Shown: positions 15,467-17,331 of the stretch, piece by piece | Numbering within the stretch: position 1 is the stretch's first letter | Layout: each line of letters starts with the position of its first letter | NCBI GenBank assembly: GCA_002086835.1 | Contig: MVIG01000001.1 | Coordinates: 434,001-498,000 of the forward strand | Length of the DNA: 64,000 bases | Source: Mycolicibacterium porcinum | GTDB taxonomy: Bacteria > Actinomycetota > Actinomycetes > Mycobacteriales > Mycobacteriaceae | Reading direction: 5' to 3' | Translations under genes and position numbers: made by a program | The notes under the pieces: model-generated | The model's database searches: none | Seen by the model: the letters and a program-made list of their open reading frames with translations, nothing else | What the model was told of the DNA's origin: nothing

Positions 15467-15756
15467 CGGCAAAGGAGTTCGTCCAGAAGGTGGTCGCGGG
15501 GCAGTGGCCGATCCTCGTGGTCGGGCTGATCTTCATCGCGGCCTTCGCCTTGGTGGTGGCGGGCTACTGGCGCCGCGGCGCGTTGGTGATCGGGATCGGT
15601 GTCGGTGCGGCGGCTGCGCTGCGGCTGGCGCTGACCGACGACCGGGCCGGTCTGCTGGTGGTGCGAAGCCGGACGATCGACTTCGCCACCACCGCGACCG
15701 TGAGTGCCGTGGTGCTCTACATCGCCTGGACCATCGACCCGCTGGGCACCAGTTAG
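15463..15756 (+). CDS. DUF3017 small membrane protein (Rv3355c-like)
   Basis: A 97-residue protein with three hydrophobic helices ([38 protein letters not shown] and [17 protein letters not shown]) and a short charged N-terminus. It matches the actinobacterial DUF3017 family, which is typically coded directly after folD. The GTG start overlaps the folD stop by four bases. No function is known. Its stop overlaps that of the convergent erm gene by four bases. Confidence 0.88.
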
Positions 15757-16493
15757 CGGACCGCATCGAACAGGGCGGCCCACTGTTGTGCGGACAGGTC
15801 ACGCGGCAGCGCCGAGGGATGAATTCCGTTGGCCTGCAACCACCGACGATCCACGTGATGGCGCAGGATCTGCGCCATGCCGTGGCCCCGCCCGGTGAAC
15901 ACCTCGTGTGCGAGGGCCTGATACCTGCGTCGGTCGGCCGTGGGGACCAGGGGTTCACCACGGCGTGTGATGGTCAACAGCCCGGCGTCCACACCGGGTC
16001 TGGGCCGGAAGGCATCTGCGGAAACCTTTCGTGCCAGACCGAATTCGAACCATGGCCACCACTGCGCGGTCATCATGGTGGCGCCGCCGATGGCGGCTCG
16101 TCGGCGGGCCACCTCCCATTGCATCAGCAGGACGGCGTCGGTCCACCCCGGGCCGTGTAGCAGTCGCCGCAGCATCGCGGTGGTCAGGTGAAAGGGCAGA
16201 TTGCCCACCACCACATGCGGCGCAGTGGGGAGGCGGTACTTCAGAAAATCCGCACTGACCACTTCGGCTGAAGTTCGGTCCGCCAATCGTCGCGCCCGCC
16301 GCCGGTCGATCTCGATGGCGGTCAGCTGCCGGTTCAACCGTTGCAGTGGCAGGGTGAGCGCACCGTCGCCGGCGCCGATTTCGATGATGGGACCTGTTGT
16401 GCGCGAAACGATTGTGACGATGTCGGCGATCACTCGTCGGTCGCACAGGAAGTTCTGGCCGTACTCGTGACGGCCGTGATGAGTTGAAGGCAC
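15753..16493 (-). CDS. erm: 23S rRNA (adenine-N6)-dimethyltransferase Erm, mycobacterial type
   Basis: A 246-residue SAM-dependent methylase that modifies A2058 of 23S rRNA and confers macrolide-lincosamide resistance. Motifs: the N-terminal GQNFLCDRRVIADIV loop, motif I EIGAGDG (~38-44), acidic EIDRRRARRL, ADFL (~81-84) and the catalytic GNLPFHLTTAML (~97-108). The length fits the intrinsic erm genes of rapidly growing mycobacteria such as erm(39), rather than the longer erm(38) or the shorter erm(41) (recalled). The start is GTG at 16493 with GGAG at 16499-16502. The region upstream holds an 11-codon leader and competing hairpins, suggesting inducible expression; see those entries. It is convergent with the DUF3017 gene. 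Confidence 0.92.
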   Translation of the reverse strand: MPSTHHGRHEYGQNFLCDRRVIADIVTIVSRTTGPIIEIGAGDGALTLPLQRLNRQLTAIEIDRRRARRLADRTSAEVVSADFLKYRLPTAPHVVVGNLPFHLTTAMLRRLLHGPGWTDAVLLMQWEVARRRAAIGGATMMTAQWWPWFEFGLARKVSADAFRPRPGVDAGLLTITRRGEPLVPTADRRRYQALAHEVFTGRGHGMAQILRHHVDRRWLQANGIHPSALPRDLSAQQWAALFDAVR

Positions 16494-16498
16494 GGAGA

Positions 16499-16559
16499 CT
16501 CCGCAGTCGCAGGGACAAAGCTGCTGCGGCGGATGTTCCGAGAAGGTGAAGATCCGCCG
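16499..16559 (-). promoter_or_regulatory. Candidate erm attenuator: two mutually exclusive hairpins
   Basis: Between the leader ORF and erm, one 8-bp stem pairs 16552-16559 with 16527-16534 (CGGCGGAT/ATCCGCCG on the mRNA). A second 6-bp stem pairs 16524-16529 with 16501-16506 (CCGCAG/CTGCGG). They share bases 16527-16529, so only one can form. The second stem covers the GG of the erm ribosome site GGAG at 16499-16502. This arrangement is what translational attenuation of erm genes requires; it is inferred from sequence only. Confidence 0.5.
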
Positions 16560-16560
16560 G

Positions 16561-16596
16561 CTATGTGGTGCGCAAGCGGAGGTAGGTCACTGACAT
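16561..16596 (-). CDS. ermL: erm leader peptide with RLR motif
   Basis: An 11-codon ORF (MSVTYLRLRTT) upstream of erm on the same strand. It contains Arg-Leu-Arg, the known macrolide-dependent ribosome arrest motif of one class of erm leader peptides. The ATG at 16596 lies seven bases after a -10-like TACCGT, so it is probably the first codon of a leaderless mRNA, common in mycobacteria. It is followed at once by the hairpin pair that could mask or free the erm ribosome site. Drug-induced stalling here is inference. Confidence 0.6.
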   Translation of the reverse strand: MSVTYLRLRTT

Positions 16597-16603
16597 GGCT
16601 GTC

Positions 16604-16650
16604 ACGGTAGCCAGGGGTGCGGTCCAGCCTCAACTGATTTTCTCAGGAAA
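16604..16650 (-). promoter_or_regulatory. Candidate erm promoter, possibly WhiB7-dependent
   Basis: On the minus strand TTGAGG (16628-16633) and TACCGT (16604-16609) are spaced by 18 bases and place the start site at the leader ORF ATG. Directly upstream of the -35 is an AT-rich patch (16634-16650). An AT-rich stretch abutting the -35 is the hallmark of WhiB7-controlled promoters, and mycobacterial erm genes belong to that regulon. The match is by eye. Confidence 0.45.
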
Positions 16651-16701: not shown

Positions 16702-17331
16702 ATGGCACCGGGACTGCGGGAACGCAAGAAGCTCGACACCCGAAGGGCGCTGAGTGACGCGGCGCTGAGCCTCGCGTTCGAGCGCGGGTTGGAGAACGTC
16801 ACCCGCGAGGACATCGCCAACCTGGCCGGAGTCTCGCTGCGTACCTTCACCAACTACTTCGCCGGCAAGTACGAGGCACTGGCCTACCGGCAGCAGGAAC
16901 GCCTGCGGCGCAGTATCGACATGCTGCGCGCGCGGCCGTTAGATGAACCGCTGTGGACCGCCATCGCCGAATCCGTGGTCAAACCGCTGGACGACGACAT
17001 GTCCGACGTCTACGGTGCAGAGAACGTGCTACCGACCCGCGAGCAGCTGGTCGAGGTCCGGAAATTGCTGATGATCCCCGAAATTCGCGACGCGACGTTC
17101 CGGGGAATGTCGGACGAGTGGGTCGTTGCGATCGCCGAGCGCACCGGCACCGAGCCGCATGACATGTATCCGCGCCTGGTGGCCGCCGTCGTGCGGGCTG
17201 TCGGCGACGTCGCGATGGATGAGTACGGAAACGCTGATCCACCAGTGGCTTTCGCGTCACTGCTGCGCAAAGGCTTCGCGGCGGTGGCCGCGGGTCTGCC
17301 GGAACCGGGCCGCGCGCCGATTTCCACCTGA
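16702..17331 (+). CDS. TetR family transcriptional regulator
   Basis: A 209-residue TetR regulator. The HTH is at ~33-60 (VTREDIANLAGVSLRTFTNYFAGKYEAL), preceded by the usual first helix RRALSDAALSLAFERGLENV. The C-terminal ligand domain has no recognisable specificity. ATG at 16702 lies just after a perfect palindrome, the likely operator. The FAD monooxygenase follows 79 bp downstream on the same strand and is the obvious target; erm diverges upstream. The TetR ligand may therefore be an aromatic antibiotic or xenobiotic, which is inference from context. Confidence 0.88.
   Translation: MAPGLRERKKLDTRRALSDAALSLAFERGLENVTREDIANLAGVSLRTFTNYFAGKYEALAYRQQERLRRSIDMLRARPLDEPLWTAIAESVVKPLDDDMSDVYGAENVLPTREQLVEVRKLLMIPEIRDATFRGMSDEWVVAIAERTGTEPHDMYPRLVAAVVRAVGDVAMDEYGNADPPVAFASLLRKGFAAVAAGLPEPGRAPIST

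Follow-up and report, generated by a model that had tools for sequence, protein, structure and literature searches.

The region upstream of the erm gene in the 64,000 nucleotide stretch of DNA analyzed here (hereafter the window) is probably a drug-induced translational attenuator of erm, with a leaderless, ErmDL-like leader and a WhiB7-type promoter. Its layout, the conservation of that layout, its geometry and the co-evolution of one of its helices (2:3) are backed by sequence or comparison. A preliminary description of this DNA had read the region as a set of competing hairpins controlled by drug-stalled ribosomes; the promoter, the leader ATG and ORF, and the GGAG and GTG of erm were confirmed at the positions given there on the minus strand, and the meaning assigned to them is supported by sequence, comparison or modeling and is very probably right.

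The erm gene (15753-16493, minus strand, as are all elements below unless stated otherwise) starts with GTG and encodes a 246 amino acid 23S rRNA methyltransferase. The closest NCBIfam model is Erm(38), which was matched with 438 bits, below the 800 bit cut-off of that model, and the protein passes the cut-off of the broad Erm model NF000499 (NCBIfam). It is the one Erm match at E 1e-60 or better in the 6.96-Mb genome of the window. On one side erm is neighbored by a divergent TetR-like gene (16702-17331, plus strand), on the other side by a small ORF followed by folD. Directly 5' of erm and in the same orientation lies a short leader ORF of 11 residues, MSVTYLRLRTT-stop (16561-16596, with the stop ending at 16561; codons ATG TCA GTG ACC TAC CTC CGC TTG CGC ACC ACA TAG). 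It is preceded by a -10 hexamer TACCGT (16604-16609) and, across an 18-bp spacer, by a -35 hexamer TTGAGG (16628-16633), and seven bases (GACAGCC) separate the -10 from the leader ATG at 16596, as had been described. Arg7-Leu8-Arg9 (16570-16578) is the predicted arrest motif, with Leu8 predicted in the P site and Arg9 in the A site. Segment 1, CUCCGC, comprises the codons of Leu6 and Arg7 (16576-16581), segment 2, CCGGCGGAUC (16551-16560), follows immediately 3' of the leader stop, segment 3, AUCCGCCGCAG (16524-16534), is a partner of either segment 2 or segment 4, and segment 4, CUGCGGAG (16499-16506), contains the erm Shine-Dalgarno (SD) sequence GGAG (16502-16499). The gap between the leader stop and GGAG measures 58 bases, and five bases lie between GGAG and the erm GTG (16493). 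All elements had been placed within one interval, which holds from the -35 to GGAG, while the AT-rich element AAAAT (16637-16641), three bases (CAG) 5' of the -35, falls just outside.

For comparison, 69 distinct actinobacterial erm upstream regions were used, with the window included and duplicates removed; close relatives remain among them, and counts are therefore not independent events. From the best 80 of 106 relatives (79 loci), the 45 actinobacterial loci (L004-L048) were compared and the other 34 served as distant controls. Further regions came from a survey of the genus, in which 31 of 396 genomes had an Erm match at E 1e-60 or better (G385, a match without a locus, was left out), and from plasmid sources of erm, of which 7 of 40 records were taken into the comparison. 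Left out of the 69 were L040 (no anchor, yet an RxR leader is present), 12 duplicates and L083, which is the window itself. A leader ORF of 8-30 codons with [RK].[RK] near its end, termed RxR leader, was present in 62 of the 69 regions, compared to 13.9 ± 3.2 in dinucleotide shuffles, and the strict form R.R..stop in 59, compared to 3.2 ± 1.6. In a joint mechanical scan, an ORF of 8-30 codons ending with R.R..stop was combined with TANNNT 6-7 nt before its start. This combination was detected in 55 of the 69 erm upstream regions and, on both strands of the 64-kb window, at one place, the erm leader. As controls, 132 stretches of 420 nt, displaced from 44 related erm genes, were scanned on both strands; none of these 264 control region-strands contains the combination, and nine have the strict ORF without the -10. 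A search of the window's own genome with the exact promoter and leaderless-ATG pattern, a strict pattern that would miss looser members, returned the erm locus only. In Rfam no family reached its gathering score, and two sub-threshold matches (11.3 and 10.2 bits) were obtained.

The leader layout is not chance. That the RLR ORF arose as a chance product of GC-rich, Arg-rich sequence might be argued from the loose RxR ORFs, which occur on average in 13.9 of 69 shuffled regions and in 6 of the 34 distant relatives not labelled actinobacterial. The strict form, however, is present in only 1 of these 34 loci, far exceeds its shuffles, is unique in the window and is never joined to a -10 in the control region-strands. 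A chance origin is thus refuted by the comparison with shuffles and controls, and we assign it next to no probability.

In Mycobacterium abscessus, the WhiB7 motif is described as a stretch rich in A and T that lies 3 bp 5' of the -35 and is present in all 56 ChIP-seq regions, and erm41 is listed among the WhiB7 targets (PMC10727445, sections consulted). AAAAT-CAG-TTGAGG of the window has this same pattern of the WhiB7 regulon. An A/T run of at least four at -47 to -39 was detected in 53 of the 69 regions, compared to 0-11 of 69 at six other offsets, and in 36 of 69 regions it has a TTG nearby. Both the AAAAT and TTGAGG of the window and the frequency of the A/T run agree with the WhiB7-like promoter with an AT-rich -35 flank that had been proposed. 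Furthermore, erm(38) of M. smegmatis is reported to be regulated by WhiB7 (PMC13393426, sections consulted), and the genome of the window has a gene that combines a WhiB domain with the AT-hook RGRPRK. The erm promoter of the window is WhiB7-type, and WhiB7 would be expected to bind here. The A/T run is absent from 16 leaders, among them plasmid copies of erm(46), erm(36) and erm(50), one locus each from Actinomyces and Arachnia, and three loci from the genus of the window, and because of these leaders WhiB7 control of actinobacterial erm leaders is probably not universal.

Among the 69 leaders, TANNNT precedes the leader start by 7 nt in 53 and by 6 nt in 11 (64 of 69 together), a count that is favored by our preference for the start with a -10 where several in-frame starts are possible. 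At the remaining 43 spacings within 0 to 44 nt, it was seen at most once each. This spacing is in line with the leaderless start suggested for the ORF MSVTYLRLRTT, and we infer that transcription starts at the A of the leader ATG (16596).

The arrest-peptide class RLR, to which ErmDL belongs, has the motif Arg/Lys-X-Arg/Lys, and this motif is found in the window and in 62 of the 69 regions in all. The middle residue of these 62 leaders is L in 29, I in 16, T in 9, P in 3, F in 3 and D in 2. The first basic residue is encoded by AGG in 29, CGG in 15, CGC in 14, CGT in 3 and AAG (Lys) in 1, and the second Arg by CGC in 55, CGT in 5 and CGG in 2. Arg is therefore kept via unlike codons next to a variable middle residue, as predicted by the +X+ rule. 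RxR is followed by two residues in 60 leaders and by three in 2. Counted from the first base of the predicted P-site codon through the last base of the leader stop, 58 of the 62 modeled loci with an R-x-R span 15 nt, two span 18 nt, one spans 9 nt and one 39 nt. The leading edge of a ribosome lies about 15-17 nt ahead of the P site, and a stalled ribosome would thus end about where segment 2 begins; that the 15-nt geometry puts the ribosome edge at segment 2 would explain why two residues regularly follow RxR. The assignment of RLR as a macrolide arrest motif is strengthened by these observations, since R-x-R with a free middle residue and the distance to the stop are kept in most erm genes sampled. 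Translation of ErmDL arrests when Leu7 occupies the P site and Arg8 is kept out of the A site, and RLR was described as critical for stalling with telithromycin and largely dispensable with erythromycin (PMC8298421, sections consulted).

If WhiB7 alone were responsible for the inducibility of erm, the leader would be a passive leaderless ORF, translated merely to deliver ribosomes to erm. The AT-rich element in 53 of 69 regions and the reported regulation of erm(38) by WhiB7 (PMC13393426) are in line with such an arrangement, which nevertheless gives no reason for the conservation of RxR at the peptide level with shifting codons, nor for the recurrent 15-nt geometry, and we regard it as very improbable.

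Seven of the 69 regions have no R.R near the stop (L012, L020, L039, L113, L114, L115 and L119), of which L012, L115 and L119 do contain R-x-R, though outside the counted form just before a stop. The leaders of L020 and L039 end with TDFRRA and TLIRRF, respectively. In L113 and L114 (Rhodococcus erm(46) plasmids), whose leader has TEFRRF, Glu-Phe-Arg-Arg is found where relatives have Arg-x-Arg-Arg, so that R-x-R is absent and the rest of the layout is kept. In L115 (654-743, Nocardioides plasmid pCHL) the stop codon is missing after RLRSR and the frame extends by 15 further residues, and in L119 (erm(50)) RLR lies ten residues before the stop. Thus, erm(46) and erm(50) kept the layout with a motif that is changed or displaced. 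In L012 (2470-2518, Mycobacterium deserti; L099 is the same stretch) the promoter and leader start are kept, whereas the stretch from the RMR codons to the erm start contains neither a leader stop nor attenuator segments nor an SD; here the leader continues out of frame into erm and is fused to its start.

Folding of the leader region (16596-16450) yielded -48.4 kcal/mol, which is more stable than the mean of its shuffles (-39.8 kcal/mol, z -2.45), and 2 of 200 shuffles were as good. The minimum-energy fold has a stem GGCGGAU:AUCCGCC (16558-16552 with 16534-16528) and a stem CUCCGC:GCGGAG (16581-16576 with 16504-16499), by which segment 1 covers the SD. An alternative overlapping stem is formed by CCGCAG:CUGCGG (16529-16524 with 16506-16501), and a small hairpin CGGA:UCCG (16503-16500 with 16496-16493) spans SD and start. 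The overlapping stems noted before, one of them over the erm GGAG, were hence recovered as 1:4 over the SD with 3:4 and 2:3 as alternatives. Among 19 short-type sequences, helix 2:3 is formed in 96.2% of cells, nearly invariant and without covariation within the set, helix 3:4 in 93.9%, with four of six pairs invariant, and helix 1:4 in 74.6%, poorly conserved and without covariation; RNAalifold on the same sequences returned the small hairpin over SD and start as well.

Since the helix cores of the short-type set are too invariant for covariation, pairing within each locus was compared to pairing after swapping segments across 64 loci (those of the ribosome model below, with L115 also dropped). 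Own pairing was better than swapped pairing for 2:3 (0 of 2000 permutations as good), 1:2 (p 0.0005) and 3:4 (p 0.003), and not better for 1:4 (p 0.34) and 2:4 (p 0.82). In a thinned set of 20 loci with pairwise alignment scores under 0.72, 2:3 remained better (p 0.0008), 3:4 reached p 0.03, which as one of six tests would not survive correction, and 1:4 (p 0.22), 2:4 (p 0.48) and 1:3 (p 0.23) did not differ from swapped. Helix 1:2 lost its signal on thinning (p 0.22) and was dropped as a co-evolving helix. Segments 1, 2 and 3 of erm(X) read AACCGC, GGCGGUU and AAACCGC, with both 1:2 and 2:3 kept. Judged from these sequence comparisons, helix 2:3 appears clearly to co-evolve across loci and helix 3:4 weakly so. 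The SD may be covered by the leader codons (1:4), by segment 3 (3:4) or by the local hairpin, and of these candidates only 3:4 has a (weak) co-evolution signal.

In an overlapping variant of the attenuator, the leader CUCCGC would be the only anti-SD and helix 2:3 would be permanent, so that the stalled ribosome would cover the anti-SD directly, with the same induction outcome and without a 3:4/2:3 switch. The minimum-energy fold of the window contains 1:4, and in the model described below the SD opens once segment 1 is partly covered (edge -3). On the other hand, 1:4 is found in 74.6% of cells of the 19 short-type sequences without covariation, its pairing is not better than swapped in either set (p 0.34 and 0.22), and relatives with AGG as first Arg codon (such as L011, L013 and L102) do not have the core pairs. 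We therefore consider direct occlusion rather unlikely and retain a switch from 3:4 or 1:4 to 2:3 as the preferred reading.

In 28 long-spacer relatives, a second strong GC-rich hairpin with the consensus CCGGGCG with UGCCCGG (A2 columns 130-156) is located between segment 3 and the SD; the window has nothing comparable. In these relatives the SD is often CCCGGAG, which might pair with the end of this second hairpin.

Ribosome positions were modeled by equilibrium folding, in which base pairs were forbidden under the ribosome and the chance of the SD being unpaired was computed, for 65 of the 69 loci (L012, L020, L032 and L046 were dropped owing to a fused leader or because no SD was found). 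With ribosome edges numbered relative to the P site, this chance in the window was 0.00 up to edge -6, 0.34-0.46 for edges from -3 to +18, and 0.21-0.22 from edge +21 on, the expected position of a terminating ribosome, at which the SD was not fully closed again. In the 19 short-type sequences, the mean rose from 0.13 to 0.35 with a ribosome modeled at RLR; this shift of 0.217 compares to 0.051 ± 0.034 in 40 spacer shuffles (maximum 0.137), and 12 sequences rose and 2 fell by more than 0.1, with 5 changing less. Over all 65 loci no general SD opening was observed (mean 0.21 to 0.25; 10 rose and 8 fell by more than 0.2). Modeling thus suggests that a ribosome at RLR opens the SD, both in the window and in most of its close relatives, in line with the earlier proposal that a stalled ribosome exposes the erm start, and this claim is limited to the short-type group of the window, as long-spacer relatives have no switch at equilibrium in the model.

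Such long-spacer relatives, with their second GC-rich hairpin and no modeled SD opening, would be accommodated if the leader acted via transcription (premature termination, Rho) or mRNA stability and not by uncovering the SD, and the uORF of whiB7 itself is reported to work by antitermination (PMC10727445, sections consulted). However, the hairpins of the window are not followed by four or more consecutive U, the SD-linked helix 3:4 co-evolves, if weakly, and in the group of the window the profile over stall positions agrees with SD control. For this reason an effect on transcription or stability is considered unlikely.

Taken together, we propose the following sequence of events for the attenuator. 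The WhiB7-type promoter would give an mRNA that starts at the A of the leader ATG, and ribosomes would therefore begin the 11-residue leader without a Shine-Dalgarno site. In the absence of drug they would reach the leader stop and leave, with the erm SD paired to segment 3 or to the leader CUCCGC. A ribosome that carries a macrolide or ketolide is predicted to halt when Leu8 occupies the P site and Arg9 cannot enter the A site; it would then cover segment 1, and its front would lie at about the leader stop codon. Segment 2 would then be free to pair with segment 3, the SD would lose its partners, and Erm would consequently be made. WhiB7 is itself induced via a drug-sensing uORF, and stalled ribosomes would therefore gate erm at two levels, transcription and translation.

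The region had been called a complete control region, which is too strong, as further control may be added from just upstream. A perfect palindrome of 21 bp, ATATTGCCCA-T-TGGGCAATAT (16684-16664), with a second, imperfect copy (16665-16651), is flanked by the divergent TetR-like gene on one side and by the AT-rich element of the erm promoter on the other. From its sequence it is a possible TetR operator, which could add a third control on erm.

The inducibility of erm(38) and erm(39) is published. In the parts of the literature found, inducible mycobacterial erm expression is credited to WhiB7 at the promoter; if the proposed attenuator is true, the leader itself contains a second, translational sensor, which has no ribosome-binding site and whose layout also occurs in mobile erm genes, for example erm(X), erm(36) and erm(55). 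We see even chances that the Erm(38)/(55)/(36)/(X) line shares one ancestral attenuator class, defined by a leaderless leader ending with RxRxx-stop, a near-fixed distance from arrest codon to stop that places the stalled edge at the switch helix, and mostly a WhiB7-type promoter. Were this the case, two uORF drug sensors in series, that of whiB7 and that of erm, would gate resistance. The proposed reading predicts which drugs induce which erm genes and raises the question if macrolides arrest ribosomes that started on a 5'-terminal AUG of a leaderless mRNA. Because of the RxR motif, induction by ketolides is predicted, which classical ErmCL-type leaders are said to escape.

Among the matches listed in a search of titles and starts of abstracts of the open-access literature, in which names of the type "erm(39)" are unsearchable, no leaderless RxR leader of an actinobacterial erm was found. 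Likewise, no earlier description of the leaderless start, the WhiB7-type promoter and the shared RxRxx-stop geometry was found among these matches. The erm(X) leader of Corynebacterium plasmids is a member of the same set of leaders as the window (MLISGTAFLRLRSNR, with TATAAT 7 nt before the start; L118). For erm(X), a leader peptide and erythromycin-inducible attenuation have already been proposed, in an account whose examined parts do not mention a leaderless start or the RLR motif (PMC3350403). A leaderless uORF attenuator is also known in mycobacteria from the polycysteine leaderless short ORFs (Canestrari et al., 2020, as described in PMC9031893, sections consulted), which sense the supply of cysteine, whereas the leader of the window would sense drug. 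The actinobacterial uORF of whiB7/wblC answers to ribosome-targeting drugs as well (PMC10727445, PMC12121999, sections consulted); in contrast to the leader of the window, it acts on transcription through a terminator/antiterminator and stands one step higher in the same response. ErmDL arrests at Arg-Leu-Arg when the middle residue occupies the P site and Arg is kept out of the A site (PMC8298421), as is predicted for the window leader, and differs in that the window leader is predicted to be leaderless, has RxR two residues before the stop and a middle residue that varies among relatives. The likeness to ErmDL is one of features, with no claim of homology.

As proposed for the window, a stalled leader ribosome in ErmCL/ermC frees a downstream partner and the erm SD is released. 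The 1:2/3:4 switch of ErmCL/ermC is that of the classical erm attenuators, from which the window departs in having another arrest motif and a leader without an SD; moreover, in the window's group the leader codons themselves can cover the SD. Attenuators of erm by leader peptides are a known kind, to which the window would belong by the sequence features and modeled behavior compared here.
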